From assembly GCF_003610995.1 (NCBI RefSeq), contig NZ_CP032543.1, positions 6,200,001 through 6,264,000 of the forward strand: DNA of 64,000 nucleotides, written 5' to 3'. Under the pieces are notes generated by a model. That model saw only the letters and a list, made by a program, of their open reading frames with translations. It searched no databases and was not told the origin of the DNA. The DNA comes from Streptomyces griseus subsp. griseus. Its GTDB lineage: Bacteria > Actinomycetota > Actinomycetes > Streptomycetales > Streptomycetaceae. This document shows positions 8,741 through 50,974 of the stretch, in pieces; within the stretch, counting starts at the first letter, position 1; every line of letters begins with the position of its first letter. Both the position numbers and the translations under genes were made by a program.

Positions 8741-8771
8741 GGGTGTGATGGGCCGATCGGCCCCGCCTTCG

Positions 8772-9503: not shown

Positions 9504-9613
9504 GATCGCGGAGTCTAGGCAGAACTCCCCGCTCGGGGCAGGGGGGGTGCTCGCCTCCGGTCCGGGCGGGGCCGTGGTCCTCCCTCGGCCTCGGAGGCCG
9601 CGTGTTCCCCGGC

Positions 9614-10261: not shown

Positions 10262-10346
10262 GAACGGCTCCTCTCGGACACATCGACAGAGCGTCGACAA
10301 GGGTCGGTCGATCAGTATCACGCCGCCCGGGGCGGCCGGGCCCCGG

Positions 10347-10793: not shown

Positions 10794-11030
10794 GGGCCTC
10801 TCCTCACCTCGTACGGTCCGTCCCTCCATCCTGCACCCCCGCCCGGCCGCACCGGGGATTCGTACACCTGGACAGAGCTCCCACCGCACGGGGGAACGCG
10901 GACCGGGAACCCCTCGGTGAAGGCGTATAAAGGGTCCTTCCGGAGCAGCCGGCGTCCTCCGATGGACCCTCCCCACCTCACCCCCGACCGCGCGGCCGGC
11001 GTCACCGCGTCACTGAGCCCAGGAGCGCCA

Positions 11031-28729: not shown

Positions 28730-30502
<1,773 letters not shown>

Positions 30503-33085: not shown

Positions 33086-34780
33086 GTGTTGGCCATGTCG
33101 GGGGAACCGTTGCGCATACAGCTCTTAGGGCCGGTACGGGTATGGCGGCAGGGGCAGGAGGTGCCTCTGGGGCCGCCCAAGCAGCGCGCGGTGCTCGCCC
33201 TGCTCGCCAGCCGGGCGGGCGAGGTGGTCGGGGTCGACAACATCGTCGACGGGCTCTGGGCGGGTGACATCCCGCAGACCGCGACGAACGGGGTCCACAC
33301 CTATGTCGCCGGGCTGCGGCGCGCGCTGGAGCCCGGGCGCAGCCGACGCGAGGCCGGGGCGATCCTCACCTCGGTCTCCGGCGGCTACTGCCTGCGGATG
33401 GACCCGGAGCAGGTGGACGCCACGCTCTTCACCCGCCGCCACGCGCGGGCCCGCAGGGAGCGGACCGGGGGGAGCCCGGACGAGGCCGTGCGGTGGTACG
33501 AGGAGGCCCTCGCGCTCTGGCGCGGCGACGCGTACTCCGGGGTGCCGGGCCCGTTCGCCGCCGTGGAGCGGACCCGGCTGCGGGATCTGCGCCTGACCGC
33601 CGTCGAGGAGTGGGCGGCCGACATGCTGGAGGCGGGGCGCCACGCGGAGGCGGTCGCCGAACTCTCCACCGCCGTGGGCGAGGAGCCGCTGCGCGAGAAG
33701 CTGCGCTGGCTGCTGATGCTCACCCTCTACCGCAGCGGACGCCAGGCGCACGCGCTGGCCGTCTACACCGAGACGAGGCAGCTCCTCGACCGGGAGCTGG
33801 GCATCGAACCGGGCGCCGAACTGCGCAGCCTGCACCAGCGGATCCTGGCCGGTCACCCCACGCTGCGCCCCGAGGCTGAGGGGGCGGCGCCCCGTCCGTT
33901 ACGGAGACCGGCGAGCAGCGCCCCCGACCTCTCAAGACCCGTGCAACTTCCCCCATTGGCACGGGGATTCGTCGGCCGGACCGAGGAACTGGAACGGCTG
34001 GAGGAGCTGTTGGACGACGAGCGCGGCGGGTACGGGGCGAGCACACCCATCGCCGTCGTCGACGGCCCCCCGGGCGTCGGAAAGACGGCGTTCGTGCTGG
34101 AGCTGGCCCACCGGCTGCTGGGCCGCTTCCCCGACGGCCAGCTCTACGTCGACCTGTGCGGCACCGGCCGTCAGGGCCGGCCGCTGAACGCCTCGGACGC
34201 CCTGGAACAACTCCTGTCCAGCCTCGGGGTCGAGAGCTCCCGGATGCCCGCCGATGTGGCCGGCCGCACCACCCTCTACCGCAGTCTGCTGCACGGCCGC
34301 CGCATGCTCGTGGTCCTCGACGAGGCCCTCGGCGCCGACCAGTTGAGGCCGCTCATACCGCGCGGATCCTCCTGTGTCCTGGCCACCGGCCGGCAGCGGT
34401 TCAGCGGGCTGGCCGCCCGCGACGGTGCCCATGTGCTCACGATGGGCCCCCTCGCCGACCATGACGCGGCGACCCTGCTCACCAGCCTCTGCGGGGGCCG
34501 GCTCCGGGGGCAGGAGGCGGCCGCGGTGCGGCTGGTGCGGCTGTGCGGCGGTCTCCCGCTGGCCCTGCGGATCGCGGCCGAGGAGCTGTCGGCCAACCCC
34601 ACCGTCCCGCTCGCTTCCATCATCGAGAGGTTCGCCGCCGCGTGTGCGGAGCGCGAGTCGCCCAGGAACCGGGAGGCGGCCCTGATCCGCCTGGTCGAGT
34701 GGGAGTCCGGGACCGGCGGGGAGGCCCCCGCGCACGTGCAGGTGGACATGGGCGACGTCCGCACCGTCGTCCTGCGCTAG
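33086..34780 (+). CDS. SARP-family pathway activator with NB-ARC-type ATPase domain
   Basis: A 564-residue activator of the AfsR/DnrI/RedD family. Residues about 1-95 form an OmpR-like winged helix (LRIQLLGPVRVW...VPLGPPKQRAVLALLASRAGEVV...TNGVHTYVAGLRRALEP). About 100-255 form the bacterial transcriptional activation domain. After a linker, GFVGRTEELERL and the Walker A VVDGPPGVGKTAF begin an NB-ARC ATPase with LVVLDEAL as Walker B. AfsR continues with TPR repeats; this protein stops after the ATPase. GTG 33086 is chosen because AGGAGG lies 7 nt upstream; ATG 33095 is an alternative. It probably activates the opposing NRPS operon. Confidence 0.92.
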   Translation: MLAMSGEPLRIQLLGPVRVWRQGQEVPLGPPKQRAVLALLASRAGEVVGVDNIVDGLWAGDIPQTATNGVHTYVAGLRRALEPGRSRREAGAILTSVSGGYCLRMDPEQVDATLFTRRHARARRERTGGSPDEAVRWYEEALALWRGDAYSGVPGPFAAVERTRLRDLRLTAVEEWAADMLEAGRHAEAVAELSTAVGEEPLREKLRWLLMLTLYRSGRQAHALAVYTETRQLLDRELGIEPGAELRSLHQRILAGHPTLRPEAEGAAPRPLRRPASSAPDLSRPVQLPPLARGFVGRTEELERLEELLDDERGGYGASTPIAVVDGPPGVGKTAFVLELAHRLLGRFPDGQLYVDLCGTGRQGRPLNASDALEQLLSSLGVESSRMPADVAGRTTLYRSLLHGRRMLVVLDEALGADQLRPLIPRGSSCVLATGRQRFSGLAARDGAHVLTMGPLADHDAATLLTSLCGGRLRGQEAAAVRLVRLCGGLPLALRIAAEELSANPTVPLASIIERFAAACAERESPRNREAALIRLVEWESGTGGEAPAHVQVDMGDVRTVVLR

Positions 34781-34834: not shown

Positions 34835-36154
34835 TCAGGCCGGAAGCTCCTCCGGCCCCGTCGGCATCGTGCGCAGCTTCCCGACCGGCGACAGGAAGAT
34901 CGGCACGAGCATCGCCGCCGACAGCACCCCCGCCACCCACAGCGCCGCGTGCAGCCCCAGCACCCCGGCCAGCAGCCCGCCGACCGGCCCGCCGAGCGCC
35001 CCGCCGCCGTACAGCAGCATGCGCATCGCGGCCGTCATCCGGCCCATCAGCGGCTGCGGGGTGATGCTCTGCCGCAGGCTCACGATGATCACGTTGGAGA
35101 TGCTGGAGCCGAAGTATTCGAGGAAGAACGAGGCGACGAACAGCCCCACCAGCAGCCACGAGGGGCCGCCCGCCGCCGGGATCAGCAGCGGGCCCAGGAA
35201 GATGATGGAGACCGACACCCGGTAGGCCGTGCCCACCGAGAGGCGGCGCACCACCATCCCGGCGATCAGCGCCCCGAGCAGGCCGCCCACCGCCGCCGCG
35301 CCCATCACGAAGCCGACGGTCGCCGCCGACAGCTCCTTGTCCCGCACCGCGTACAGCAGGAACAGCGACTGCACCATGGTCAGGAAGAAGTTGCAGGAGC
35401 AGCCGACGAGCCCGATCGCGCGCAGCCACCGGTTGCCGAACACCCAGCGCAGCCCCTCGGCCAGCTCGGCGCGCAGCCGCCGCTTCTCGGTGCGGGCGGG
35501 CGGATCCGGCTCCGGCGCCCGGACCAGCAGCAGCGAGATCACCGACAGGGCGTACGAGAAGGCGTTGGCGGCCATCGCGGCGGGCGCCGAGAAGGCGGTG
35601 ACCAGCGTGCCCGCGATCCCGGGACCCGCCACATCGGCCGACGACAGGGTCGCGTTGAGCTTGGTGTTGGCCTCGAGGAGGCTGCGCCTGTCCTTCACCA
35701 GCACCGGTACGTAGCTCATCCAGCTGACGTCGAAGAGCACCGCGGCCGTGCCGACCCCGAACGCCAGCACGTACAGCAGGGGCAGGGTCAGCAGCCCGAA
35801 GTGGTACAGCAGCGGCACCAGGCCGATGAGGACCATCCGTACGATGTTGGCGCCCAGCATCACCGGGCGTTTGCGCACCCGGTCCACCCAGACGCCGAAG
35901 ACGAGGGCGAGCGCCAGGAACGGCACCAGCTGGGCGAAGCGGAGCATGCCGAGCTGCTCGGGCCCGACCTGGAAGACCAGGACCGCGGTGAGCGGCAGGG
36001 CGAGGTTGGCTATCTGGGTGCCGTACAGGGAGAGGCCCTCGCCCACCCAGAACACCATGAAGTCCCGGTTGTGCCACAGGCTCCGGGGTGGCGGGGGCTC
36101 GGCCACCTTCGCGGTGGCGGTGCCCGCGTCCCTGCGGCTGCTGTCCTCGCTCAC
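34835..36154 (-). CDS. MFS exporter of the NRPS cluster (EntS-like)
   Basis: A 439-residue major facilitator with about 12 hydrophobic helices, of the type that includes the enterobactin exporter EntS. It starts with WHNRDFMVFWVGEGLSLYGTQIANLALPLTAV, has FGVWVDRVRKRPVML after helix 2, and GPGIAGTLVTAF in helix 5. It is the last gene of the nine-gene operon. Its ATG overlaps the thioesterase stop (ATGA, 36151-36154). It most likely exports the peptide product and provides self-protection. Confidence 0.88.
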   Translation of the reverse strand: MSEDSSRRDAGTATAKVAEPPPPRSLWHNRDFMVFWVGEGLSLYGTQIANLALPLTAVLVFQVGPEQLGMLRFAQLVPFLALALVFGVWVDRVRKRPVMLGANIVRMVLIGLVPLLYHFGLLTLPLLYVLAFGVGTAAVLFDVSWMSYVPVLVKDRRSLLEANTKLNATLSSADVAGPGIAGTLVTAFSAPAAMAANAFSYALSVISLLLVRAPEPDPPARTEKRRLRAELAEGLRWVFGNRWLRAIGLVGCSCNFFLTMVQSLFLLYAVRDKELSAATVGFVMGAAAVGGLLGALIAGMVVRRLSVGTAYRVSVSIIFLGPLLIPAAGGPSWLLVGLFVASFFLEYFGSSISNVIIVSLRQSITPQPLMGRMTAAMRMLLYGGGALGGPVGGLLAGVLGLHAALWVAGVLSAAMLVPIFLSPVGKLRTMPTGPEELPA

Positions 36155-36966
36155 ACCGAAGCTCCCCTGCGCAGTGCCTGGTTGACGATCTCCGCGATGG
36201 CCACGAGCCCCGGCTCCCGCCAGATCGAGTGGTGGTCGCCCGGCACGGTGTGCTGGTCCAGGCGGCTCGCGTACGGCTCCCAGAGCAGCAGGTGCGGCTC
36301 CGACTCCGCGGCCCTGACCAGGGTGGTCGGGCCGTCGTGGACCCCGTCGATGACATGGCCGACCATCGCGTGGGCGTGCGCCCGGAACAGGGTGAACCGT
36401 TCGAGCAGGAACTCCGCGTCGAACTCCTCCGGTACGGTCCCCGAGTCCGCGATGGCCTCCAGCCGCTCCTGCGGCCCCGCCTCCGGGCCCAGCTTCGCCA
36501 GCGCCCTGTCCAGCTCCGGCGCCCCGCCGCTGACCAGCCCCAGGAAGTCATGGAGGAAGTACCGCACCAGCGCGGGCCCCGGCGGGAAGGGCTGGGTGCC
36601 GGGCAGCGCCGCGTCGATGACGACCAGCAGCGGTACCTCCTCACCCTCCGCGGCCAGCAGCCGGGCCATCTCGAAGGCCACGACCCCGCCGAGCGACCAG
36701 CCGAGCAGCTGGTAGGGCCCGTGCGGGCGGGCCGCCCGGAGCGTGGCCGTATGCACCTCGGCCAACTCCCTTATCGAATCCGCCGGTTCATCGACCCCGT
36801 CGAACCCGGGGGCCTCGAAGCCGAACACCGGGGAGCCGGGATCGAGGCGCGCCGCCAGATCCGTGTAGCAGTAGGGCGAGCCGGAGACCGGGTGGACGCA
36901 GTACACGGGCGGCAGGTCGCCGCCCGTGCGGAGCGGGACGAGGCTGTCGGTAGGGATGTCGCTCAC
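36151..36966 (-). CDS. Free-standing NRPS thioesterase
   Basis: A 271-residue alpha/beta-hydrolase like the terminal TE domains of NRPSs. Ser91 lies in LLGWSLGG, Asp118 in LLVVIDAALPG, and the His is in GDHHSIW (about 245-246). The GWSLGG elbow is typical of chain-releasing TE domains rather than of editing type II enzymes (usually GHSMG). Neither NRPS protein here has a built-in TE, so this enzyme may release the product in trans by hydrolysis or cyclisation. It overlaps both neighbours by 4 bp (ATGA). Confidence 0.88.
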   Translation of the reverse strand: MSDIPTDSLVPLRTGGDLPPVYCVHPVSGSPYCYTDLAARLDPGSPVFGFEAPGFDGVDEPADSIRELAEVHTATLRAARPHGPYQLLGWSLGGVVAFEMARLLAAEGEEVPLLVVIDAALPGTQPFPPGPALVRYFLHDFLGLVSGGAPELDRALAKLGPEAGPQERLEAIADSGTVPEEFDAEFLLERFTLFRAHAHAMVGHVIDGVHDGPTTLVRAAESEPHLLLWEPYASRLDQHTVPGDHHSIWREPGLVAIAEIVNQALRRGASV

Positions 36967-39374
36967 CGGTCGCGGCCTCCGTCGTTCAGCTTGTGGCCTC
37001 CGTCGTCGGGGGAGGCGGAAGCGAGCAGCTGGTCGATGGCGGCGGCGACACCGCCGACGGTGCCACCGCTGTGGAGCAGACGTACGTTCACCTTGATCCC
37101 GAAGTGTTTGCTGAGGCGGCTGACCGCCCGCATGGCCTGGAGGGAATCCCCGCCGGCGGCGATGAAGGAGCTGTTCGCCCCGATCTTCGGGGCCGACAGC
37201 ACGGTGGCGAAGATATCGGCAACCGCCTTCTCCGTGGGGGAGTTCGGCGCGATGTAGGAGGTCTCCCCGTCCTCCGGGGGAGGCGGTGCGGGGAGCGCCG
37301 TGCGGTCGGTCTTGCCGTTGGCGGAGAGCGGCAGCCGGTCCAGGACGAGCACCGCGCCCGGCACCATGAACTGCGGCAGCGCGCCCGCCAGATGGGCGCC
37401 GATCACCCGGGGGCGGACCGTCCGGCCCGGTCGCGGTACGACGTACCCGACCAGCCGGAGATCACCGGCCGCGTCCCTGCGGGTGGCGACGACGGCCTCC
37501 TTGACCGCCTCGTGCGACCGCAACACCGCCTCGATCTCACCGAGTTCGATGCGGTGGCCGTTCACCTTGACCTGGAAGTCGGAGCGGCCGAGCAGTTCGA
37601 TCAGCCCGTCCGGGCCGTACCGGGCCACGTCGCCCGTCCGGTAGAGCCGCTCCCCGCTCACTTCGCCGTGGGACCAGTCGAAGAACCGCTCCCCGGTCAG
37701 CTCGGGCCGGTCGAGGTAGCCGGTCGCCAGCCCGGTCCCCGCCAGGTGCAGTTCCCCCGCGACGCCGGGCGGAACCGGCTGGAGGCGGGTGTCCAGGATG
37801 TACGTCCGCTGGTTGGCCATCGGACGCCCGTACGGGATGCTCGTCCACCCGGGATCGACCTCCCCCACCTCGTAGAGCGTGGAGTGGATCGAGGACTCGG
37901 TGGCCCCGCCGAGCGCCACGAACCGGAGCCCGGGAGCGGCCCCGCGCGTCCGGTCCGGCAGCGAGAGCGGCACCCAGTCCCCGCCCAGCAGGGCCAGCCG
38001 CAGGGCGTGGAGAGGCGGGGCGCCGCTCTGCTCCAGCTGTTCCACGACCAGTTCGAGGAGGGCGGGTGCCGAGTTCCAGACCGTGATCCGGTGCGTGGAC
38101 AGCAGATCGGCCCAGTGCTGCGGGTCCTTGGCGAGCGCGGGCTCCGGCAGCACGACCGTGCCCCCGGCCGCCGTCAGCCCCAGGAACTCGTAGACGGACA
38201 TGTCGAAGCTGGGCGACGACAGCGCGAGGACGCGGTCCCCGGGACCCACGGAGTAGCGGGAGTTGAGGTCCGCGATGTTGTTCATCACCCCGCGGTGGCG
38301 CAGCGCGATCGGCTTGGGCGCGCCGGTCGACCCCGAGGTGTGGATGACGTACGCGAGATCGCCGGGCGCCACCCCGCTGCTCACGTTCCCGGCCGGGGCG
38401 CCGGCCCACTGCTCCGCGTCCCGGTCCAGCTCCACGATCCGTGGCCCGGCCCCGGTCAGCCGGGAGGCGAGCCCGCTCCGGGAGACGATCGCCGCACACG
38501 AGGTGCCGGTGACCATCGCCGCGATCCGCTGCTCCGGATAGTCCGGGTCCAACGGCACATAGGCGGAGCCCGACTTGAGGACACCCAGCACCGCCACGAG
38601 CAGGTCGGGCGACCGGTCCAGGCAGATCCCCACCCGGCCCCCGACGCCCGCACCGAGCCCGCGCAGATGGCGGGCCAGCCGGTTGGCCGCCGCGTTGACC
38701 TCGCCGTACGTCCACTCCTCGGAGCCACGGATCAGCGCCACGGCTCCGGGGTCGGCGGCCGCCTGCTCCTCGAACGCCTCGTGCAGGCAACGCTCGTAGG
38801 GGAGTTCGGCAGCCGTGTCGTTCCACTCCACCAGCGTGCGGTGCAGCTCGCCGTCGGTGAGGAGCCGCAGCCGCGAGACGGCGGTGTCCGGGCGGCCGAG
38901 GGCGTCCTCCACCAGCGTGCGGAAGTGGGTGAGCAGCCGCAGAACGGTCGCCTGGTCGAACAGGCTCGCGTCATAACGGAGTTGGACGATGCGATGGGCG
39001 TAGGCCCCGCCGCTGCGCTCCTGGAGCACCAGCTCGAAGTCGGTCGCCGGCCCCTCGCCGTCCGCCACCGGCTCGCGCCGCTCCAGGACGGACCGGGCGA
39101 GCTCCGCCGGTGTCGTCCCCTCGCCGATGGCGCAGCTCAGCCGGAAGGAGCCCGCACCGGGGGTGCGGACGCGGAAGCCGAACTCCTCCTGGCCGGTGTA
39201 CCGGTGGAGCAGCGCGGCGAATCCGGCGAGCAGCAGCTCCTCCGGCGCCGCCCCGGCCGCCTTGTCCAGCACCACCCGCTGCCGGGCGGTGCACCCGGCG
39301 GGCTCGCTCTGCCGCGGCCGGTCGGTGGGCAGCAGAGCCGGGGGCGCCGAGCCGCCCTGGTCATCGAGCGTCAC
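36963..39374 (-). CDS. NRPS with condensation-domain remnant, adenylation and carrier domains (cC-A-T)
   Basis: An 803-residue NRPS starting at GTG 39374, overlapping the SHMT-like stop (GTGA). Residues about 25-215 resemble only the C-terminal lobe of a condensation domain (PEELLLAGFAALLHRYTGQEEF... to ...RLRLLTDGELHRTLVEW); no HHxxxDG is present, so it cannot condense by the normal mechanism. The A domain follows: YVIHTSGSTGAPKPIALRH, FVALGGATESSIHS, LYRTGDVARY, SANGKTDR. Specificity residues read by eye are D-M-Y-N-L-G-L-I-H-K, nearest in memory to the Cys code (D-L-Y-N-L-S-L-I-W-K). The carrier Ser is 744 (GGDSLQAMRAVSRL), strikingly like the carrier of the other NRPS. It probably loads the first amino acid. 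Confidence 0.9.
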   Translation of the reverse strand: MTLDDQGGSAPPALLPTDRPRQSEPAGCTARQRVVLDKAAGAAPEELLLAGFAALLHRYTGQEEFGFRVRTPGAGSFRLSCAIGEGTTPAELARSVLERREPVADGEGPATDFELVLQERSGGAYAHRIVQLRYDASLFDQATVLRLLTHFRTLVEDALGRPDTAVSRLRLLTDGELHRTLVEWNDTAAELPYERCLHEAFEEQAAADPGAVALIRGSEEWTYGEVNAAANRLARHLRGLGAGVGGRVGICLDRSPDLLVAVLGVLKSGSAYVPLDPDYPEQRIAAMVTGTSCAAIVSRSGLASRLTGAGPRIVELDRDAEQWAGAPAGNVSSGVAPGDLAYVIHTSGSTGAPKPIALRHRGVMNNIADLNSRYSVGPGDRVLALSSPSFDMSVYEFLGLTAAGGTVVLPEPALAKDPQHWADLLSTHRITVWNSAPALLELVVEQLEQSGAPPLHALRLALLGGDWVPLSLPDRTRGAAPGLRFVALGGATESSIHSTLYEVGEVDPGWTSIPYGRPMANQRTYILDTRLQPVPPGVAGELHLAGTGLATGYLDRPELTGERFFDWSHGEVSGERLYRTGDVARYGPDGLIELLGRSDFQVKVNGHRIELGEIEAVLRSHEAVKEAVVATRRDAAGDLRLVGYVVPRPGRTVRPRVIGAHLAGALPQFMVPGAVLVLDRLPLSANGKTDRTALPAPPPPEDGETSYIAPNSPTEKAVADIFATVLSAPKIGANSSFIAAGGDSLQAMRAVSRLSKHFGIKVNVRLLHSGGTVGGVAAAIDQLLASASPDDGGHKLNDGGRDR

Positions 39375-40783
39375 GCCACTCCTCCCGCCCGCACGCCGGA
39401 GGCCGCCGGAGCCGGAGCCCCTGCGCCCGGCACCACGGACACCGTCCCCAGCGGCAGCGGATGGCGCTCGCACAGCTCCGCCACCCCCGCCCGGACCGCG
39501 TCCCGTTCCCCGGCGTCGAGGACGTACTCCCGCTCGCCGCGGACCGTCGTCGCCTCCAGCACCCGGTGCAGGAGCGCGGCACAGCTGCGCATCCCGGCCG
39601 GGCCCATGCCGCGCTGGGCCAGGATGTTGGTGCCCAGGCGCAGCCCGCTGGTGACGAGCGGCGGCCGGGTGTCGTCCGGGACCCGGTTCCGGTTGGCGAG
39701 GATGCCGCACTCCTCCAGGGCCCGTTCCGCGACCACGCCGGTCATGGGGCGGCCCGTGAGGTCGATCAGCACCATGTGGTTGTCGGTGCCGCCGGTCAGG
39801 ACGCGGTGGCCCAGCGCCGACAGCGCGTCCGCGAGGGCCGCCGCGTCGTCGACGACCAGCCGCATCGTCTCCTTGAACGCGGGCTCCGCGACCAGCGCGA
39901 GCGCCCGGGCCTTGGCCGCGATGGCCGCCGGGCTCGGCGTGCCCTGCGACAGCGGGAAGACGGCCCGCTGCATCAGCCGCGACAGCGGGGTGCGGCCGTC
40001 GGGGCCGGGCGTGGCGTGCTCCCGCCCGATCAGGATCAGTCCGCCGCGCGGCCCGCCGAGCTGCTTGTACGTACTGGTCGTCGTCGCGTGCGCCAGGTCC
40101 ACCGGCGTGGGGTGCTCCCCGGCCGCCACCAGCCCCGCGATGTGCGAGATGTCCGCGACCAGGTAGGCCCCCACCGAGTCCGCGATCGCCCGGAAGCGCG
40201 CGAAGTCCAGCGTACGGGGGTGGGCACTGGCCCCCGCGATGAGCACGCTCGGCCGGTGCAGCTCGGCCAGCGCCGCCACCTGCTCGTAGTCGATCCGCCC
40301 CGCACCGTCCAGCCCGTAGTGCACGGCCTGGTAGTGCATCCCGGTCACCGAGGCCGGGGAGCCGTGGGTGAGGTGCCCGCCGGAGTCCAGGTCCAGGGCG
40401 AGGATGGTCCCGCCCGGGCGGACCAGCGCGGCCAGCACCGCCTGGTTGGCCGAGGAGCAGGAGTGCGGCTGGACATTGGCGTACACCGCGCCGAAGGCCT
40501 GCTTGGCCCGCTCCACCGCGAGCCGTTCCACCAGGTCGAACTGCGCGGCGCCGGGGTGGTAGCGGGCCCCGGGATACCCCTCGGCCGTGACGTTGGAGAG
40601 CGCCGATCCGGCGGCCGCCAGCACCGAGGGGTCCGCGATGCTGGTGGACGCCACCATGGCGAGCGTCGCGTGCTGCTGCACCACCTCGGCGTCCAGGAGC
40701 CGTGCCAGCTCCGGGTCGGCCGCGCTCAGCGCGGCCGCTCCCTGCTGGGCCAACTCCGCCTGTGAGAAGACGGGTTCAGGCAC
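39371..40783 (-). CDS. Serine hydroxymethyltransferase-family PLP enzyme, altered active site
   Basis: A 470-residue fold-type I PLP enzyme close to GlyA: AEGYPGARYHPG, YANVQPHSCSSANQ, GGHLTHG, DISHIAGLVAAGEHP, TYKQLGGPRGG, GTDNHMVLIDL. The Schiff-base Lys is 240 and the pyridine-contact Asp is 211. The catalytic Glu of the SHMT motif ASEN is missing; the sequence is A-S-T-S (Thr47), and the His before the Lys is Tyr239. This argues against normal folate-dependent serine/glycine exchange. Alternatives are an alpha-methylserine-type transferase, a threonine-aldolase or transaldolase making a beta-hydroxy amino acid, or another PLP reaction. GTG 40783 overlaps the NRPS stop by 8 bp. Confidence 0.88.
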   Translation of the reverse strand: MPEPVFSQAELAQQGAAALSAADPELARLLDAEVVQQHATLAMVASTSIADPSVLAAAGSALSNVTAEGYPGARYHPGAAQFDLVERLAVERAKQAFGAVYANVQPHSCSSANQAVLAALVRPGGTILALDLDSGGHLTHGSPASVTGMHYQAVHYGLDGAGRIDYEQVAALAELHRPSVLIAGASAHPRTLDFARFRAIADSVGAYLVADISHIAGLVAAGEHPTPVDLAHATTTSTYKQLGGPRGGLILIGREHATPGPDGRTPLSRLMQRAVFPLSQGTPSPAAIAAKARALALVAEPAFKETMRLVVDDAAALADALSALGHRVLTGGTDNHMVLIDLTGRPMTGVVAERALEECGILANRNRVPDDTRPPLVTSGLRLGTNILAQRGMGPAGMRSCAALLHRVLEATTVRGEREYVLDAGERDAVRAGVAELCERHPLPLGTVSVVPGAGAPAPAASGVRAGGVA

Positions 40784-43700
40784 GGGTGGCCGCCTTTCCG
40801 GCTTTCGCCACCAGCTCGTCGATGGCCGTGGCGAGCGCGCCGACCGTGGCACCGCCGTACAGCAGCCGGACGTTGACCTTCACCTTGAAGTGCTTGTTGA
40901 GCCGGCTGACCGCCCGCATCGCCTGGAGCGAGTTGCCGCCCAGCTCGAAGAAGCTGGCACCGGTCCCGACGCGCTCCCGCGCCAGCACGGTCCCGAAGAC
41001 CTCGACGACCTTCTCCTCGGTCGGGGTGACCGGGGCGATGTACGAGTCCACCGCACCGCCCGCGCCGACCGGTGCGGGGAGCGCCGCCCGGTTGATCTTG
41101 CGGGCCGGGGTCAGCGGGAACTCCTCCAGCTCCACCCACGCGGTCGGCACCATGTACTCCGGCATGGTCCGGCCCAGGTGGTCCCGCAGCTCCGCCACCG
41201 TCGGCGAGGTGTCGCCGAGGACCGTGTAGTACCCGACGAGCTGCTTCTCCCCGTCGTCCTCGCGCAGCAGCACCAGCGCCATCCGGACCTTGGGGTGGGT
41301 CAGCAGCCCCGACTCGATCTCCCCGAGTTCGATGCGCAGCCCGCGCAGCTTGACCTGGTTGTCCAGGCGTCCGATGAAGTCGATCTGGAGGTCGGGCGTC
41401 CACCGCACCAGGTCGCCCGTGCGGTAGACGCGCCCCTCGCCGAGGAACGGGTCGGGCACGAACTTCTCGTCGGTCAGCTCCGGCAGGTTGAGGTAGCCGC
41501 GCGACAGCCCCTCGTCCCCGCCGATCAGCAGCTCACCCGGGACACCGACCGGCACCAGGTTGAACTCCTTGTCGACCACGTAGTGCAGCCGGCTGAACTC
41601 CGGGCGCCCGATCGGCGGCGAGGACTTCCACTCGCGGTGCTCACACAGGTACTCGGTGGTCGCCACGGACGCCTCGGTCGGCCCGTACAGGTTCACGAAC
41701 TGGCGGCCCGGCAGGTTCCACTTGTTGACCAGCTCGGCCGGGAGCGCCTCCGCCCCGCCCATGATGTATTTCAGGTCCGGGTACGGCTCGGCCTCCACCA
41801 GCGACAGGATCGCCGGGGACAGTCCCGCGTACGTCACCCGCTGGTCGCGCATCAGCGCCCCCAGCGACTCCGGCGACGAGGCGTCCTCCGGCGCCACCAG
41901 CACCATCGCCGACCCGCTGATCAGCCCGGCGAAGATCTCGCCCTGCGACATGTCGAAGGTGAGCGCGGGCAGCTGGAGCAGCCGGTCCGTGTGGCCCCAC
42001 TCGCCGAAGGTACGCCGGTAGGCCTCGATGAACATGCGCAGCCCGCGCTGTTCGATCATCACGCCCTTGGGCTTGCCGGTCGAACCGGAGGTGTAGAGGA
42101 CATAGACGAGCGAGGTCGGCTCCGCCCACTCCTCCAGCGGTACGTCGTCGTCCTCGGCCTCCACCGTCTCCCACTCGGTGTCGATCCGCAGCACCTCCCA
42201 CCCGCTGGAGGGCGGCAGATCACCGACGTTCGCGTCCCGGGTGATGACGAGGGGTGCGGCGGTGTCCCGCAGCATGTGGTCCAGGCGCGCGTTCGGGTGC
42301 GACGGGTCGATGATCGTGTAGGCGGCCCCGGAGATCATCACGCCGACGATCGCGACCAGTGCGTCCAGGTCCCGGTCCATCGCGATGGCGACAACCTGCT
42401 CCTGCTTCACACCCCGCGAGCGGATGTGCCGGGCCAGCTTGCCGGACCGCCCGATCAGCTCCGCGTACGTCATCTCCTTGCCCCGGCACACGGCGGCGAC
42501 CAGCTCCGGGTGTTCCCGCGCGATCCGGGCGATGGTGGCGTGCACCGGCTCGGCCGGGTAGTCGAAGTCGGCCCCGCGCCCGGCCTCCAGCAGCTCGCGC
42601 CGCTCCTCATCGGAGAGCAGCGGCAGTTTGGAGACGGGGGTGTCCGGGTCGGCGGCGGCCGCGCCCAGCACGGTCCGGAAGTGCTGGACCATCGCCTCCA
42701 CCCGGCGGCGGTCGTACAGGTCGGTGGCGTACTCCACGATGAGCCGCAGCCGGTCCGGGCCCTCGATGAAGCTGAAGGAGAGGTCGAAGCGGGAGCGCCC
42801 GCCGGAGACCAGGATCGACTCGGTCTCCAGCCCCTCCAGCTGGAGCGCGTCCCCGGTCGTCGTCTCGCCGAGCAGCTGCACGGCGATCTGGAACAGCGGG
42901 TTGCGGCCCGCGTCCCGTACCGGCTGCACCCGGTCGACGACATGGTCGAAGGGCACGTCCTGGTTGTCGTACACATCGAGGTTGTTGTCGGCGATCCGCT
43001 CGATCAGCTCGGCGAAGGTGAGCTGGCCGGAGAGGTCCGAGCGCAGCACCGTCATATTGATGAACAGGCCGACCACGTCTTCGAGTTCGGGATCGGTGCG
43101 GCCGAGCATCGGCACCCCGATCGCGATGTCGTCCTGCCCGCTGTACCGGGCCAGCACCACCTTGAGCGCGGCGGCCACCACCATGTAGAGCGAGGCCCCC
43201 TGCTCCTGCGCCAGCGAGCGGGCCTGGCCGAGCAGGTCGGCCGGGAAGCTGACGGTGAAGGTCTCGCCGTTACGGGTGGGCTCCGCCGGGCGGACCCGGT
43301 CGGCGGGCAGCTCCAGCGCCTCCAGACCGGCCAGCCGCTCCTGCCAGAAGTCCAGCTCGCTCTCCCACTGCCCCGAGGCACGCTGCTCCCGCTGGCGCTC
43401 CACATGGTCGGCGTAGGTGGCGGCCGGGGCCGGCAGCTCGGGGGTGAGCCCCGCCCGCAGCTGCCGGTACGCCTCGGTGATGTCCCGGCTGATCACCCCG
43501 CCGGACCAGCCGTCGGTGACGATGTGGTGGTAGTTGAGGGAGAGGACGTGCTCCTCGTCGGCCAGCTGGAACAGCCGGAACCGGCGCACCGGCCCGGCCG
43601 CCAGGTCGAACGGGGTGTCGGCCTCGGCCTTCAGCGCCTTGTCGAGCGCCTGCTCCCGCTCCTCGGGCGTGAGCCCGGACAGGTCGGTGACCGGCAGCGG

Positions 43701-43961
43701 GGTGTCCTCGGCCGGGGCGACGACCTGGTGCGGGACGCCGTCCACCGCGTGCAGGGTCACCCGCAGCTGGTCGTGGCGGGCGACGAGCAGGTTGAGCGCC
43801 CCTTCCAGCGCGGGCAGGTCCAGCGGGCCGCGCAGCCGGTAGGCGGTGGGGACGTTGTAGGTGGTCTCCCCGGGGTTCATCTGGTCCAGGAACCACAACT
43901 GCTCCTGCCCGAAGGACAGGTGCATACGGGACTCGTCAGCGTCCGACGCGCTCATGGTCAC
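40776..43961 (-). CDS. NRPS module: condensation-adenylation-carrier (C-A-T)
   Basis: A 1061-residue single module. The condensation domain (about 12-445) is complete: LSFGQEQLWFLDQM, RHDQLRVTL, catalytic HHIVTDG at 145-151, and VGLFINMTVLRSDLSG. The A domain (about 465-960) shows YVLYTSGSTGKPKGVMIEQ, NLYGPTEASVATTEY, YRTGDLVRW, GRLDNQVKLRGLRIELGE and LTPARKINR. Specificity residues read by eye are D-M-G-G-I-G-L-V-A-K, which I do not match to a known amino acid. The carrier Ser is 1011 (ELGGNSLQAMRAV). There is no epimerase or TE. It probably condenses the residue loaded on the other NRPS with its own, giving a dipeptide. ATG 43961 overlaps the aminotransferase stop (ATGA). Confidence 0.93.
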   Translation of the reverse strand: MTMSASDADESRMHLSFGQEQLWFLDQMNPGETTYNVPTAYRLRGPLDLPALEGALNLLVARHDQLRVTLHAVDGVPHQVVAPAEDTPLPVTDLSGLTPEEREQALDKALKAEADTPFDLAAGPVRRFRLFQLADEEHVLSLNYHHIVTDGWSGGVISRDITEAYRQLRAGLTPELPAPAATYADHVERQREQRASGQWESELDFWQERLAGLEALELPADRVRPAEPTRNGETFTVSFPADLLGQARSLAQEQGASLYMVVAAALKVVLARYSGQDDIAIGVPMLGRTDPELEDVVGLFINMTVLRSDLSGQLTFAELIERIADNNLDVYDNQDVPFDHVVDRVQPVRDAGRNPLFQIAVQLLGETTTGDALQLEGLETESILVSGGRSRFDLSFSFIEGPDRLRLIVEYATDLYDRRRVEAMVQHFRTVLGAAAADPDTPVSKLPLLSDEERRELLEAGRGADFDYPAEPVHATIARIAREHPELVAAVCRGKEMTYAELIGRSGKLARHIRSRGVKQEQVVAIAMDRDLDALVAIVGVMISGAAYTIIDPSHPNARLDHMLRDTAAPLVITRDANVGDLPPSSGWEVLRIDTEWETVEAEDDDVPLEEWAEPTSLVYVLYTSGSTGKPKGVMIEQRGLRMFIEAYRRTFGEWGHTDRLLQLPALTFDMSQGEIFAGLISGSAMVLVAPEDASSPESLGALMRDQRVTYAGLSPAILSLVEAEPYPDLKYIMGGAEALPAELVNKWNLPGRQFVNLYGPTEASVATTEYLCEHREWKSSPPIGRPEFSRLHYVVDKEFNLVPVGVPGELLIGGDEGLSRGYLNLPELTDEKFVPDPFLGEGRVYRTGDLVRWTPDLQIDFIGRLDNQVKLRGLRIELGEIESGLLTHPKVRMALVLLREDDGEKQLVGYYTVLGDTSPTVAELRDHLGRTMPEYMVPTAWVELEEFPLTPARKINRAALPAPVGAGGAVDSYIAPVTPTEEKVVEVFGTVLARERVGTGASFFELGGNSLQAMRAVSRLNKHFKVKVNVRLLYGGATVGALATAIDELVAKAGKAATRA

Positions 43962-45088
43962 AGGACTCCGTTCGGCAGATTGCTGTTCTCTCCGCTGGAG
44001 TGGGCAGCGGACGGGGGAACGTGGGGAGCGGGGCGGAGCAGCGGTTCGATCCGTCTCAGCCCCTCGGTCACGGCCTCGGGATCGCGGGCGAAGCAGATCC
44101 GGAAGCCGTCGGTGGCCCCGAGGGTCTCGCCGGGCATCAGCAGCACCCCGGCGTCCAGCACCCGGCGGCAGAGCGTCAGCGGCTGCTCCCCGGTGGTCAG
44201 CCGGAGCCAGGCGAAGGGGGTGTTCTCCGGCTCCACGAGCTGCACGGCGTCCGCGTTGCGCTCAGCGAACTCCCGGACCAGCTTGAGCCCTTGACCGGTG
44301 ATGTCCGCGTACCGGCGCAGGTAGTGGTCCCGGTGGTCCAGCACATCGCAGGCCAGCGTCTCGCAGAGCACCGAGTTGGCTATGGTGGAGAGGAACTTGC
44401 GCCGGGCGCACCCCTCGACGACCTCCGGCGGCCCGTACAGCCAGCCGACCCGCAGGCCGGGGAACCCGTACACCTTGGAGAGGCTGGAGACCGAGATCGC
44501 CCGGTCGCCGGAGCGCGCGGGGGAGTCCCGCAGGTCGAGTGCGTACTCCTCGTCCAGCAGCAGATAGGCGTCCCGCCGCTCCGCCAGCTCCAGCAGCCCG
44601 CGCAGATCGGCGTCGGCGATCCGCCGACCGGTCGGGTTGCAGGGGGAGTTGGCGACGATCAGCCGCAGCCCGGGACCGGCCAGCGCGGCGGCGGCCTCCA
44701 CGTCGAAGGTCAGGTCCTCGCGGTAGGGCGCGCAGTCGACCCGGCAGCCCAGATCGGCGGTGATGTCCCAGGACTGCTGCCACCCCGGGCGGTAGACGAT
44801 CACCTGCGCGCCGGGGGAGAGCAGTGAGGCGTAGACGAGGTAGAGGGCCTGCTGCGCCCCCTGCGTGATCAATACGTTGGCGGGGTCACCGGCGTAGAGG
44901 CCCGCGACCCGGTCGCGCAGCGGGCCGATGCCCCGGTCGTGCCCGTAGTCCAGCTCCAGGTCCGGCGGTACGGAGAGCTGGTCGAGGCGGCCGGGGAGCA
45001 TGTTGCTGTCCCCGAGGTCGATGTCGAAGCGTCCGGCGGCGTCCTGGAAGACCCACCGCTGCATGGGGTACTCATCCGCGGGGCTCAC
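43958..45088 (-). CDS. Fold-type I PLP enzyme (class I/II aminotransferase / capreomycidine synthase-like)
   Basis: A 376-residue PLP enzyme. NSPCNPTG (147-154), the pyridine Asp in LLLDEEY (179), Lys205 in SSLSKVYGFPGLRVGW and an Arg in FRICFARD near the C-terminus are the usual aminotransferase set. The middle part (VIVYRPGWQQSWDITADLGCRVD) recalls capreomycidine-synthase-like enzymes as much as true transaminases. It could make or remodel the unusual amino acid of the peptide: transamination, beta/gamma-elimination or cyclisation. GTG 45088 overlaps the DapF-like stop (GTGA), so the two are strictly coupled and may act in sequence. Confidence 0.87.
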   Translation of the reverse strand: MSPADEYPMQRWVFQDAAGRFDIDLGDSNMLPGRLDQLSVPPDLELDYGHDRGIGPLRDRVAGLYAGDPANVLITQGAQQALYLVYASLLSPGAQVIVYRPGWQQSWDITADLGCRVDCAPYREDLTFDVEAAAALAGPGLRLIVANSPCNPTGRRIADADLRGLLELAERRDAYLLLDEEYALDLRDSPARSGDRAISVSSLSKVYGFPGLRVGWLYGPPEVVEGCARRKFLSTIANSVLCETLACDVLDHRDHYLRRYADITGQGLKLVREFAERNADAVQLVEPENTPFAWLRLTTGEQPLTLCRRVLDAGVLLMPGETLGATDGFRICFARDPEAVTEGLRRIEPLLRPAPHVPPSAAHSSGENSNLPNGVL

Positions 45089-45987
45089 CGGCCGGTCTCC
45101 CCGACGTGGTCCAGCAGGGCGCGCAGCGGCGGGGCGAACACACCGCTCGCCACCTGGTGGGCGTCCCCGGTCAGGGTCACGGACCCGTCCGGGGCGAGAG
45201 CGACGGTCACACTGCCGCCGGGCATACGAACCTCCATCTGGTCGTCGCAGAGCCCCAGTTCGCGGGCTGCGGAGGCGGCGGCGCAGGCGCTGCTCCCCGA
45301 GGCCAGCGCATAACCGGCGCCGCGCTCGTACACCTCGATCTCCAGCACGCCCCGGCTCACCACCCGCAGGAACTGCACATTGGTGCGGAGCGGGAAGCGC
45401 GCGTGTCCGGCGATCTCCGGACCCAGGGTGCGGGCCAGTTGGGCGGTCGGCTCGGCCACGGGCACCACCGTGTGCGGGTTGCCGTTGTGGAGCGCGGTCA
45501 CCGTCAGCTTCCGCTCCCCGACCGTCAGCGGCACGGAGAGCGTCGGCCCCTCGGCAGGGCTGCCGTCCTCGTTGAGTAGCGGCAGGGCGGCGGCGTCGAA
45601 CGTGGGCTTCCCCAGGCCGACTCGGACGACGCCCGCCGCCCGGTCCAGAATCTGTACGGGGCTGTCGCCCGCGGCCGTGCGGAGTGTGAACGGCGCACCG
45701 CCCGCCCACCTCTCCGGCTCCCGCTCGGCCAGGTGCAGGGCGAACATCCGCAGCCCGTTGCCGCTGCGCTCGCAGACGGAGCCGTCCGAGTTGAAGAGGG
45801 CCAGCGGGACCGGCACCCCGGGGCGGGGCTCCTCCAGCGGGCCGTGCAGGACCCCGTCCGCGCCGATGCCGAAGTGCCGGTCGCAGACGAGCCGTACGGA
45901 CTCCGGCGAGACGGGGACGTCGGTGCAGCGGGGGTCGATCACCACGTAGTCGTTGCCCAGTGCCTGATACTTGAAGAAGTCGGTCAT
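45085..45987 (-). CDS. Diaminopimelate epimerase-family protein with both catalytic Cys replaced by Ser
   Basis: A 300-residue DapF-fold protein. The family frame is well kept: KYQALGNDYVVID, RHFGIGADGVL, FNSDGSVCERSGNGLR, HNGNPHTV, FPLRTNVQF, YERGAGYALASGSSACA. In DapF the two acid/base residues are Cys in C-G-N-G and A-C-G-T-G; here they are Ser75 (AGC) and Ser230 (TCG), and the nearby Glu-Thr is Tyr-Ala. Cys-based proton exchange is therefore not possible. Options are Ser-assisted epimerisation, dehydration or other chemistry (as with hydroxyproline dehydratases that lost one Cys), or a binding role. It is not the housekeeping dapF, given its place in the NRPS operon. Confidence 0.9.
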   Translation of the reverse strand: MTDFFKYQALGNDYVVIDPRCTDVPVSPESVRLVCDRHFGIGADGVLHGPLEEPRPGVPVPLALFNSDGSVCERSGNGLRMFALHLAEREPERWAGGAPFTLRTAAGDSPVQILDRAAGVVRVGLGKPTFDAAALPLLNEDGSPAEGPTLSVPLTVGERKLTVTALHNGNPHTVVPVAEPTAQLARTLGPEIAGHARFPLRTNVQFLRVVSRGVLEIEVYERGAGYALASGSSACAAASAARELGLCDDQMEVRMPGGSVTVALAPDGSVTLTGDAHQVASGVFAPPLRALLDHVGETGR

Positions 45988-46053
45988 GACTCGTCTCAGG
46001 TAGGTGGCGGGGGACAGGGCCGCTCCCGGTCGGGCCGGGAGCGGCCCCGCACA

Positions 46054-46746
46054 TCAGGCGTCCTGCTCCTCCAGCGCCGCCGCGTCGTGCTCCTCGCCGT
46101 ACCACTTCTCCGCCCAGCGGGAGAAGGCGATGATCACGATGTCGCGGTGGCCGGGGCCGCCGTCGGCCGAGAGGACGTCGGTGACGTCATGGGCGAGCCC
46201 CCGGTCGTCCAGCAGCACCGCCTGGCCGGCGTCGAGGGTCCCCGACCAGAACGGCGCGTCCGCCTCCGGCTTCCAGAGCCGGGTGGTGCCGCCCGCCACG
46301 TTCACCTTGTTCAGGATGGCGATCATGACGAACTCGTGCCCGTCGTGGTGCACGCCTTCCGGGGTGAGTGGGCCGGGCCTGCCACCCTCGGCGCGGGTCC
46401 GGTTCTGGTGGACGTTGATCTGCCACGGCTCGGACCGGTCCAGGCCCAGTTCGCGGATGCCCTCGGAGATCAGCGGGGTGAAGTCCACCTCGATCGGCTC
46501 GTAGACGCGGCGGATCCCGCCCCCGACCGGGTTGAACTTCTTGTACGTGGTGTAGTCCCGGTGCGGCAGCCGCTTGAACGACCAGTTCTCGTCCTCGGCG
46601 GGCGTGAGTTTGTACTGCGAGAACCGCTTGAACCGGGTCCCGTTGCCCATGTAGTCGTCGACCGGGCACCGGTCGTAGCTGGGCAGGATGTCGGGCGCGA
46701 CCTCGGGCAGGTCGATGACGGTGAATCCTTCGGCGCCGAGCGGCAT
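46054..46746 (-). CDS. Fe(II)/2-oxoglutarate dioxygenase, PF10014 (L-isoleucine dioxygenase-like) family
   Basis: A 230-residue oxygenase. The iron motif H-x-D is in GVHHDGHEFVMIAIL, the distal His in LDDRGLAHDVTDV, and the 2-oxoglutarate Arg in GHRDIVIIAF. This spacing is that of the PF10014 family, whose known members hydroxylate free amino acids such as isoleucine and related aliphatic substrates. The start MPLGAEGFTVIDLPE is typical. It lies between the diiron oxidase (34 bp) and the DapF-like gene (66 bp) in one operon, so it probably modifies a building block before the NRPS. Confidence 0.87.
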   Translation of the reverse strand: MPLGAEGFTVIDLPEVAPDILPSYDRCPVDDYMGNGTRFKRFSQYKLTPAEDENWSFKRLPHRDYTTYKKFNPVGGGIRRVYEPIEVDFTPLISEGIRELGLDRSEPWQINVHQNRTRAEGGRPGPLTPEGVHHDGHEFVMIAILNKVNVAGGTTRLWKPEADAPFWSGTLDAGQAVLLDDRGLAHDVTDVLSADGGPGHRDIVIIAFSRWAEKWYGEEHDAAALEEQDA

Positions 46747-46780
46747 GTGCTCTCCCCTCCTGGTGGGTGGTGGCGGAATG

Positions 46781-47827
46781 TCAGGCGGTGACCGACGGCA
46801 TGCGCTCGTCCAGGTACGTCGCCGAGGAGTTGAGGCGCCACAGGATGCCGCGGGCGATGGCCCGGCGCATCCGGGGGGACTCGGCGGCGGGCAGCACCAC
46901 GTTGTGGAACCAGCCCTGGGCGTGCTGGGAGTCGATGGTGATGTGCAGCCGGTGGTAGACGATGCCGACGTCGGGCAGGCCGAGCCGCTCCCAGGCGTGC
47001 ACGACCTGGACGAACCGGTCCGGCGCCATCCACTCGGTCATCCCGAGGTAGCCGACGGCCTCCGGGTACAGGGCGCGGTAACGGCACAGCAGGACGGCCA
47101 GGTTGCCGTTGAGGAGCGAGTTGGCGGTGAGCGAGCGCTCCAGCTCCTCCTCCGGGATCTCGAAGACCTCGAAGATCTTGTTGAAGAGGGTGGTGTGGAC
47201 CTGGGCGTGGTCCCCGTTGCCCATCTCGTCCCAGAAGTTGGAGGCGATCTCCATCTTCGCCGCACCGGCCGTGCCGACCTGCATCATCGCCAGCAGATCG
47301 TCGAAGCGGCCGTCGACCACCGACTCCTGCATCACGTAGTTGCGCAGGTCGGACTCGTCGGCCTGGTTGCGGATGAACTCGTGGTAGTAGGGGTGCTTGT
47401 ACACCCGGTGCTCACGCGCGGTCTTCTTGAGCCAGGAGAGGTAGGCCCGCGGCTCGGTGGGCGCCTCCTCCAGCAGCCCCGGCTCGATCAGCCGGTCCTG
47501 CGCCTCGGCGGTCGCGGCCTCCAGCTGCCGGCCGATCTCGTGGACGACGACCGAGCCCTCGGCGGTCTCCTGGTCGGTCAGCTTGGTGTGCAGCCGGTAG
47601 ACCCGGTCGAGAAGGAACTGCTGTGCGTACAGAGCCTGTTGGTCGTCGGCGGCCGCGGCCTTGTTGATCTCGGCCACCCGGCCGAGCAGGGCGGTGCGCG
47701 CTTCGCCCGCGAACTGCGAGTCGACCTTGTCGGCCGCGGTCGCGAGGATCGCGGTGACCTCGTCGACGGTGGCCAGATAGCCGGTGGCGGGCTCGGTCCC
47801 GGCCCGGGAGGTGCCAACTTCGAGCAT
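46781..47827 (-). CDS. Heme-oxygenase-like diiron oxidase (HDO/CADD-BesC type)
   Basis: A 348-residue protein, first gene of the NRPS operon. After a helical N-terminal region of about 130 residues comes the HDO core: HPYYHEFIRN, LRNYVMQESVVDGRFDDLL, KMEIASNFWDEMGNGDHAQVHTTLF, HITIDSQHAQGWFHNVVLP. Likely metal ligands are Glu168, Glu193, Asp200 or Glu201, His207/His211 and His302. Known members cleave or oxidise amino acids and amines: BesC (lysine to allylglycine type), PolF (isoleucine), BelK/HrmI (lysine to nitronorleucine), SznF. The start ATG 47827 has AAGGGG upstream. It is expected to make an unusual side chain for the peptide. Confidence 0.87.
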   Translation of the reverse strand: MLEVGTSRAGTEPATGYLATVDEVTAILATAADKVDSQFAGEARTALLGRVAEINKAAAADDQQALYAQQFLLDRVYRLHTKLTDQETAEGSVVVHEIGRQLEAATAEAQDRLIEPGLLEEAPTEPRAYLSWLKKTAREHRVYKHPYYHEFIRNQADESDLRNYVMQESVVDGRFDDLLAMMQVGTAGAAKMEIASNFWDEMGNGDHAQVHTTLFNKIFEVFEIPEEELERSLTANSLLNGNLAVLLCRYRALYPEAVGYLGMTEWMAPDRFVQVVHAWERLGLPDVGIVYHRLHITIDSQHAQGWFHNVVLPAAESPRMRRAIARGILWRLNSSATYLDERMPSVTA

Positions 47828-48301
47828 CTGCTTCCCCTTGTATTCACCTGATGACTGTGACGTGCCGTACGTGCCGTGCGGGTAGCCGTCTGTCGCGCTG
47901 AGGGGGGAGGGAGGAGGAAGGGGGTCGCACCGCACACGGCTTTCGAGGTGCCGGGCAGGGTGTGTGCCAGAACGGCAGACGCGGTCAATGCGCCGCCCAT
48001 ACTGCACGCAGGTCTCTGGGCAGACTCTGTACGCGGTCTATACGGATTCGAGCCATCGGGCGGGGCGCGGGGGGAGGCGTCCGGCACCCCGGTCAAGGCA
48101 CGGCAAAGAGGGCGCGCAGTACGGGACCGTATCCGTACTCCGCGCCCTCGTTCAGGGGTGATGCAGTTGTGGTGCTCGCTCTGACAGGGACCGCGGCGGC
48201 GGCGATCGGAGCCGGGTGAGGGCGTCTCCTTCAGGTCAGAAGACGGTCCCCGGATCCTTCACCACCGCACTGGCATCGCACAGCCGCCGCGGCCTCGTCG
48301 T
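47828..48301. promoter_or_regulatory. Upstream region of NRPS operon
   Basis: About 470 bp between the first operon gene and the katA terminator hold no credible gene. A long interrupted inverted repeat occupies 48108-48149: 8 bp, one C-C mismatch, then AGTACGG/CCGTACT around an 8-nt loop. On the minus strand GACCGCGT occurs twice (48038-48031 and 47986-47979, 52 bp apart), and the second copy follows TT to give TTGACC, a possible -35. I cannot place a firm SARP heptamer repeat or -10. The operon promoter is presumably here. Confidence 0.45.
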
Positions 48302-48351
48302 CCTGCCCGCGCCGCGCGGCACCCCTCATCCGGGTGCGCGGTGCGGGCAGG
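48302..48351 (-). terminator. Terminator of katA
   Basis: A 16-bp stem (48302-48317 with 48336-48351, one G-T pair) and 18-nt loop lie 15 bp past the minus-strand katA stop. It shields the NRPS operon from catalase transcription. Confidence 0.75.
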
Positions 48352-48366
48352 GTCTGTGGGGGAGGC

Positions 48367-49824: not shown

Positions 49825-49866
49825 GTGGCGGGATGACCTTTCGTACGAGCTGCTGACGGCTTGAGG

Positions 49867-49907
49867 AGCGTAGGTTCGCCGCAGATAAAACGTCAACAGT
49901 TTGTTGA
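49867..49907 (-). promoter_or_regulatory. katA promoter with TCAACA-N3-TGTTGA operator
   Basis: Minus strand TTGACG (49896-49891) and TACGCT (49872-49867), spaced 18 bp. The perfect palindrome TCAACAAACTGTTGA (49907-49893) overlaps the -35. A near-identical element (one base different, in the centre) is at 61527-61541 over the -35 of the OHCU/uricase operon. Confidence 0.65.
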
Positions 49908-49923
49908 AAACGAAGTGTGTGGT

Positions 49924-49983
49924 TCCGGGCCGCGGCGGCGCCTGGGCGCGACAGGACAGGTGTCAGCGCCGCCGCGGCCCGGA
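49924..49983 (-). terminator. Terminator after tartronate semialdehyde reductase gene
   Basis: A perfect 18-bp stem (49924-49941 with 49966-49983) and 24-nt loop separate the hyi-TSR transcript from katA, which therefore needs its own promoter. Confidence 0.8.
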
Positions 49984-50013
49984 GATCAGGGGCCCCTCGC
50001 GGGGCGGGGGAGG

Positions 50014-50907: not shown

Positions 50908-50974
50908 GAGGGTGCCTTCCTGAAAAACGTGTGTACGTAAGGGGGCGGGCTCACCCCGTGGTGGACCCGGCCGG

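Follow-up and report, generated by a model that had tools for sequence, protein, structure and literature searches.

Genes at the Locus

The window, i.e., the whole stretch of 64,000 nucleotides from Streptomyces griseus subsp. griseus analyzed here (contig NZ_CP032543.1, positions 6,200,001 to 6,264,000), carries a minus-strand operon that includes a gene for a DapF-fold protein (45085..45987). In transcription order, the operon starts with a heme-oxygenase-like diiron oxygenase (HDO) of the BelK/HrmI type (46781..48007; PF14518; 221 bits to HrmI, PDB 9n1a), by homology a lysine N-oxygenase, the true start of which is probably located at 47827 as judged from codon statistics. It is followed by an Fe/2OG oxygenase of the BelL/HrmJ type (46054..46746; PF10014), by homology a cyclopropanase, the DapF-like gene, and a class I/II PLP enzyme (43958..45088) that is nearest to the GntC and VioD models but falls below their cut-offs. 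Further downstream are an NRPS module with C-A-PCP architecture (40776..43961), an SHMT-family PLP protein (39371..40753), an NRPS protein with A-PCP architecture, in which the condensation domain is a sub-threshold remnant only (36963..39374), a thioesterase (36151..36966) and an MFS transporter (34835..36154). A BTAD (SARP-like) regulator gene on the plus strand (33086..34780) is convergent with the operon. The PLP gene shares four bases (GTGA) with the DapF-like gene, and this overlap as well as the presence of NRPS genes had been pointed out in the first-pass annotation. A promoter/terminator scan of 45900-48400 found no promoter-like site and one terminator-like site, with 0.5 expected.

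Counted from the alignment, 222 of the 230 residues of the 2OG protein are identical to PDB 9dq0, and 8jms is almost equal. Both entries are titled just "BsmA domain containing protein," and we infer that they probably represent ScBelL of S. cavourensis, which according to the accessible part of PMC10764440 has been crystallized and yields (1'R,2'S)-nitrocyclopropylalanine.

The SHMT-family gene between the two NRPS genes recurs with them in related clusters. A TPP enzyme on one side of the cluster (28802-30502) and a catalase, a tartronate-semialdehyde reductase and a xylose-isomerase-like TIM barrel protein on the other (48367-51814) look like genes of glyoxylate metabolism that have been split by the cluster.

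Serine at Both Catalytic Positions of a DapF-Fold Protein

The DapF-like frame runs from ATG to stop, encodes 300 amino acids and has a G+C content of 0.75/0.52/0.92 at the three codon positions, like the real neighboring genes. The protein scores 136.9 bits against PF01678 (cut-off 34.7), 189.7 bits against TIGR00652 (cut-off 114.65) and 165 bits against Anabaena DapF (PDB 9mro), with which it aligns along its whole length, in agreement with its earlier placement in the DapF family. By comparison, a DcsC-type O-ureidoserine racemase (PDB 7vdy), another DapF-fold protein, though with a racemase name, reaches 118.5 bits.

Canonical DapF uses two catalytic cysteines, and the window protein has neither of them. 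Codon 75 is AGC (45763..45765) and lies within the motif R-S-G-N-G, which starts at residue 74, while codon 230 is TCG (45298..45300) and lies within A-S-G-S-S, starting at residue 229 (codon coordinates computed from the frame). Rereading the minus strand returned the same frame and the same two serine codons as had been given in the first-pass annotation, and its placement of the catalytic sites was likewise correct: Ser75 and Ser230 align with Cys75 and Cys224 of Anabaena DapF (residue numbers from the portion of PMC12039745 available). The residues that contact diaminopimelate (DAP) at both its ends in the contact list of the same source are kept in the window protein, with Thr226 of Anabaena DapF corresponding to Ser232.

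Neither a sequence error nor decay accounts for the serine pair, and both were rejected. Among the 120 relatives listed for the window protein by phmmer (the best 120 of 6959), all 119 that cover both sites are Ser/Ser, and an error in the window sequence alone is therefore unlikely; the remaining one, P0092, is truncated and has Ser75. The only other DapF match in the host genome is a dapF gene of the Cys/Cys type at 5743898-5744725. Automatic annotation gives the window gene the name of a cell-wall amino-acid epimerase, and TIGR00652 labels Ser/Ser proteins as DapF regardless of their catalytic residues.

Phylogeny of Ser/Ser Proteins

A scan of genome contigs gave at least 553 loci, of which the best 80 were retained; all 80 encode Ser/Ser proteins. 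One of the two search patterns contained Ser75 and Cys72, such that Ser75 is expected in the loci it retrieved, while the other comprised an N-terminal motif only and must be the source of the 61 loci without Cys72. These 61, referred to as the broad kind in the following, have alanine (60) or phenylalanine (one) at position 72 and stem from cyanobacteria, Bacillota, Verrucomicrobiota, Planctomycetota, Chloroflexota and others. A phmmer search with a Gloeomargaritales protein returned, among the best 120 of 8000 matches, Ser/Ser in 120 and Ala72 in 119 sequences. Tyr7, Ala9 and Tyr14 also look specific for Ser/Ser proteins; one scan pattern required them, but each recurs in 118 of the 120 matches of the Gloeomargaritales search, which was free of that pattern.

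Phylogenetic analysis of 123 sequences separated 94 Ser/Ser from 29 Cys/Cys proteins with a support of 100/100, and the window protein is located on the Ser/Ser side. Mixed Cys/Ser pairs did not occur among these 123 sequences, which were collected by similarity to the window protein and do not constitute a census. The proteins with Cys72 form a group with support 90/87 that includes the proteins of an HrmI-type cluster (L076) and of a belactosin-like cluster (L008, the protein at L067). In a quick tree computed without columns 72, 75 and 230 the split between Ser/Ser and Cys/Cys retains a support of 100, but that of the Cys72 group is just 51.

The cysteine pair was thus not lost in the lineage of the window protein; the serine pair is common to a large, old and widespread Ser/Ser branch. 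The first-pass annotation had read the replacements as a sign of a changed reaction rather than of decay. The second half of this statement stands, as the pocket is kept and the serine pair invariant, while a changed reaction is not implied by a trait of a whole branch (94 of 123 sequences) that includes the sole DapF of many genomes, as detailed below.

The window protein shares its fold family and the DAP contacts with canonical DapF, from which it is set apart by serine at both cysteine sites and by its position across the 100/100 split. With the broad kind (Gloeomargarita, Verrucomicrobiota, Sporomusa and others) it shares the serine pair and the side of the tree, while differing in three respects: the broad kind has Ala72, a constant Lys74 (61 of 61; variable in the Cys72 subclade) and no HDO or 2OG genes found in its neighborhood.

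Linkage to the Nitrocyclopropane Cassette

In 14 of 392 genomes of the genus, a 2OG gene with at least 68% identity across almost its whole length is present. It is exactly these 14 that have a DapF-like gene with an identity of at least 49%, Ser/Ser in every case (hypergeometric probability 5e-26, with shared ancestry ignored). For the DapF-like gene, up to six best candidates per genome were scored and weak matches are listed in part. Some 2OG match at 1e-15 was present in 73 of the 392 genomes; beyond the 14, three of these matches are full-length at 38-41% identity and the remainder are of partial length. One of the three (G061:C20) belongs to an HrmI-type cluster with an HDO scoring 561 bits to HrmI; at a distance of about 41 kb, its contig also carries a DapF-like gene with Ser/Ser and Cys72 (L076). 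For the other two (G118 and G037) no HDO or DapF-like match was found in the stretches examined.

In all, 34 loci with Ser/Ser and Cys72 were examined: besides that of the window, these are L062-L074 and L076 as well as 19 from among the 80 retained in the genome scan, possibly including duplicates from one genome such as L069 and L093. HDO and 2OG homologs flank the DapF-like gene in 32 of these 34 loci vs. none of the 61 loci with Ala72 or Phe72. The two exceptions are L076, where the cassette is far from the DapF-like gene, and L092, in which only a 2OG fragment precedes the DapF-like gene and no HDO was found (9783-10876).

The DapF-like subclade is thus tied to the nitrocyclopropane cassette, in NRPS as well as ATP-grasp clusters, and not to NRPSs as such. 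Whether Ser/Ser homologs form a clade associated with NRPS clusters had been raised as a point to check in the first-pass annotation; a clade tied to biosynthetic clusters was indeed found, but the link is to the cassette. A clade confined to NRPS clusters was rejected, and Ser/Ser relatives also occur without the cassette. Cluster types vary from NRPS in the window to belactosin-like clusters with ATP-grasp and molybdopterin oxidoreductase genes (L067 and others) and to cassette clusters with ATP-grasp and PIG-L genes (L070 and L072). A Thiomonas version of the cassette is accompanied by LuxI/LuxR-type genes, a ThiF-family gene and an ArgC-type protein (L157, 3152-11389). The cassette is often joined by a fourth partner, the GntC/VioD-like PLP enzyme (window, 43958-45088; L070, 10622-11761; L157, 7738-8895), for which the nitrocyclopropyl amino acid is a possible substrate.

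In the accessible part of PMC10764440, BelM (belactosin) and HrmT (hormaomycin) are described as a DapF-like gene common to clusters with the BelK/HrmI oxygenase and the BelL/HrmJ cyclopropanase. The DapF-like genes of the HrmI-type (L076) and belactosin-like (L067) clusters are Ser/Ser and Cys72, as is that of the window; BelM and HrmT themselves were matched via cluster type and description. With an HrmI/BelK-type HDO and a BelL/HrmJ-type 2OG gene as its neighbors, the window gene is most probably the counterpart of BelM and HrmT, the third gene pair of the cassette, and its assignment to the cassette is well supported. What distinguishes its cluster from those of BelM and HrmT is the GntC/VioD-like PLP enzyme, together with a short NRPS line.

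Apart from its neighbors, the subclade is marked by a new cysteine. Cys72 (codon at 45772..45774 in the window, computed from the frame) is present in all 33 distinct subclade sequences vs. none of 61 broad and none of 29 Cys/Cys sequences, and in 120 of 121 sequences of the listed phmmer set including the query. In Anabaena DapF, the residue aligned with position 72 is the proline of a Pro-Glu-Met loop wrapping around the substrate (PMC12039745, in part). Ser75, Ser230, His172, Glu221 and Cys72 are invariant in the 33 subclade sequences, as are the DAP contacts Asn12, Asn66, Asn77, Asn203 and Glu221. On the other hand, 11 of the 33 have lost Asn170, in DapF a contact of the distal carboxylate, while all 61 broad and all 29 Cys/Cys sequences keep it; it is present in the window protein and in 119 of 121 sequences of the closer, listed phmmer set.

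Probable DAP Epimerase Function of the Broad Ser/Ser Proteins

In 33 of 60 genomes, no DapF other than broad Ser/Ser ones was found; many of these genomes are MAGs and possibly incomplete. Twenty genomes, 19 with a broad gene and one Thiomonas, were searched with PF01678: eight of the 19 contained no other DapF and the other 11 an additional DapF of the Cys/Cys type. Among 41 further genomes, a single DapF exceeded the cut-off in 25, three of these with an extra sub-threshold match, and in G414 both DapF proteins are Ser/Ser (L097 and L109). The strongest case is a Gloeomargaritales chromosome (G400) in which the Ser/Ser protein is the only DapF found, along with LysA (470 bits) and a MurE (534 bits) that contains the DNPR motif; no DAP dehydrogenase exceeded the cut-off there and the DapL model stayed below it. 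In the eight genomes without another DapF, MurE was over the cut-off in seven, LysA in five and DapL in two, and the DNPR motif was found in five of the seven MurE-positive genomes, the exceptions being G408 and G411.

Searches with LysA, MurE and DapL (tblastn) placed a lysA homolog near the broad gene in five of the 61 loci. Those at L107 and L110 are about 31% identical to the LysA queries, those at L115 and L126 57 and 44%, and L129 is from the LysA query's own genome, with lysA about 1.2 kb from the broad gene. Other DapF proteins are encoded in three of these five genomes and in neither of the remaining two (L126 and L129). At L126, from a Chloroflexi MAG, one open frame (8582-10945) encodes LysA fused to the Ser/Ser DapF. 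Clustering of 2707 frames from the 61 loci revealed no identified partner group: the largest cluster (61 loci) is DapF itself, the next two (32 and 24 loci) consist of minus-strand frames, with examples overlapping DapF, and each of the others is restricted to at most 15 loci.

The occurrence as sole DapF in 33 of 60 genomes and the proximity to lysA make the serine pair seem compatible with DAP epimerase activity, and suggest that the broad double-Ser proteins are probably working DAP epimerases. In engineered enzymes the outcome differs: Cys-to-Ser mutants of PddB retain less than 0.1% activity, and the same is reported for Mt-DapF (PMC8225329, in part). A natural precedent for serine as catalytic base exists in the proline racemase superfamily (PMC4113996, in part).

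These findings bear on the main rival of the role proposed below, namely that a functional double-Ser DAP epimerase has been co-opted to provide the HDO with more lysine, which we regard as somewhat unlikely. Lysine supply has been suggested for BelM and HrmT (review, PMC10764440, in part), and the broad branch makes it more credible than the loss of the cysteines alone would suggest; the DAP contacts kept in the window protein point in the same direction. It is at odds with the host's own Cys/Cys dapF, with the outcome of scanning window genes (20404-55965) and part of those at L067, L070, L072 and L157, which revealed no further DAP or lysine gene, and with the special traits of the subclade, i.e., Cys72 and the partial loss of an otherwise constant Asn170.

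The near-inactivity of the PddB mutants and the absence of both thiols could also fit a protein without catalytic function that binds, carries or scaffolds a reactive nitro intermediate. The invariance of Ser75, Ser230, His172, Glu221 and Cys72 in the subclade and the catalytic use of serine by some members of the proline racemase superfamily render such a role improbable.

Proposed Role in Nitrocyclopropane Formation

That the gene directly follows those for a lysine N-oxygenase of the HrmI type and a cyclopropanase of the BelL type, and that it descends from a large Ser/Ser DapF branch, is well supported. The reaction we infer: as the third member of the cassette for 3-(2-nitrocyclopropyl)alanine, the window protein may act on 6-nitronorleucine by proton transfer at C6, a reading to which we assign a probability of roughly 0.4. 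L-6-Nitronorleucine is DAP-shaped, with the nitro group standing in for the carboxylate at the reactive end, and would therefore fit the pocket. Its alpha-amino acid end would occupy the distal site for DAP (Asn66, Asn203, Glu221 and Arg222), and the nitro group would lie where the DAP carboxylate is held, above the N-termini of two helices. Ser75 and Ser230 would flank C6, perhaps with help from Cys72, and a proton would be moved at this carbon, converting the nitroalkane into the nitronate needed by the cyclopropanase. The C-H of a nitroalkane is far more acidic than the alpha-C-H of an amino acid, such that a thiolate need not be required.

The cassette neighbors, the linkage in 32 of 34 loci, the specificity of Cys72 and the conserved DAP contacts are consistent with proton transfer at C6. 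Moreover, deprotonation at C6 is described as critical for cyclization, which is favored at pH 9-11 (PMC10764440, in part). According to the same source, however, the product was formed in vitro with just the HDO and 2OG enzymes, and deprotonation at C6 is accelerated by BelL itself. A helper in proton transfer is thus not strictly needed. Further points against the nitro reading are a cassette without a DapF-like gene (L075), the intact DAP pocket of the window protein and the drop in support of the Cys72 group to 51 without the trait columns. The serine pair itself is no evidence for nitro chemistry since it is also present in relatives without the cassette. At L075 (6234-11300), the genes form a belactosin-like run of HDO, 2OG, molybdopterin oxidoreductase and AKR; the same genome has a DapF-like gene in another cassette.

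The arguments from pocket and linkage would apply equally to another compound of the cassette, as the serine pair flanks any reactive-end carbon: the protein might act at the nitroso or oxime stage of lysine N-oxidation, or on the product's stereochemistry, either at C-alpha or at the ring carbon bearing the nitro group. This is unlikely, as the HDO and 2OG enzymes produce defined stereoisomers by themselves (PMC10764440, in part) and no sequence feature favors it over C6 of 6-nitronorleucine.

Nothing was found in favor of the dehydratase considered in the first-pass annotation, and such a function is very improbable. Natural replacement of cysteine by serine is shared with the proline racemase superfamily, a wider fold group in which a Ser/Cys enzyme (4HypE) is still an epimerase and a Ser/Thr enzyme (t3HypD) is a dehydratase (PMC4113996, in part). 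That superfamily is nevertheless a separate sequence family: at an E value of 0.001 the window protein matched PF01678 alone and no Pfam family of the t3HypD group. In addition, the available portion of PMC10764440 describes no hydroxylated DAP-shaped compound from the cassette steps, and the serine pair extends to relatives without the cassette.

Taken further than proton transfer at C6, the data could be read as pointing to a second, thiol-free class of DapF in which double-Ser proteins are the sole DAP epimerase of many bacteria, with BelM, HrmT and the window protein as a biosynthetic offshoot, a dedicated nitroalkane proton-transfer enzyme making the nitronate for closure of the cyclopropane, and perhaps with Cys72 as a moved thiol. 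We consider this wider proposal doubtful. In the open-access literature searched, there is no mention of the double-Ser replacement in BelM and HrmT or of natural Ser/Ser DapF proteins, and novelty is thus unproven. DapF is the textbook two-thiol epimerase, and a natural Ser/Ser branch makes the need for a thiolate directly testable. The same finding puts the lysine-supply role suggested for BelM and HrmT to a clear test, and points to a step of nitrocyclopropane biosynthesis that may still lack an assignment.
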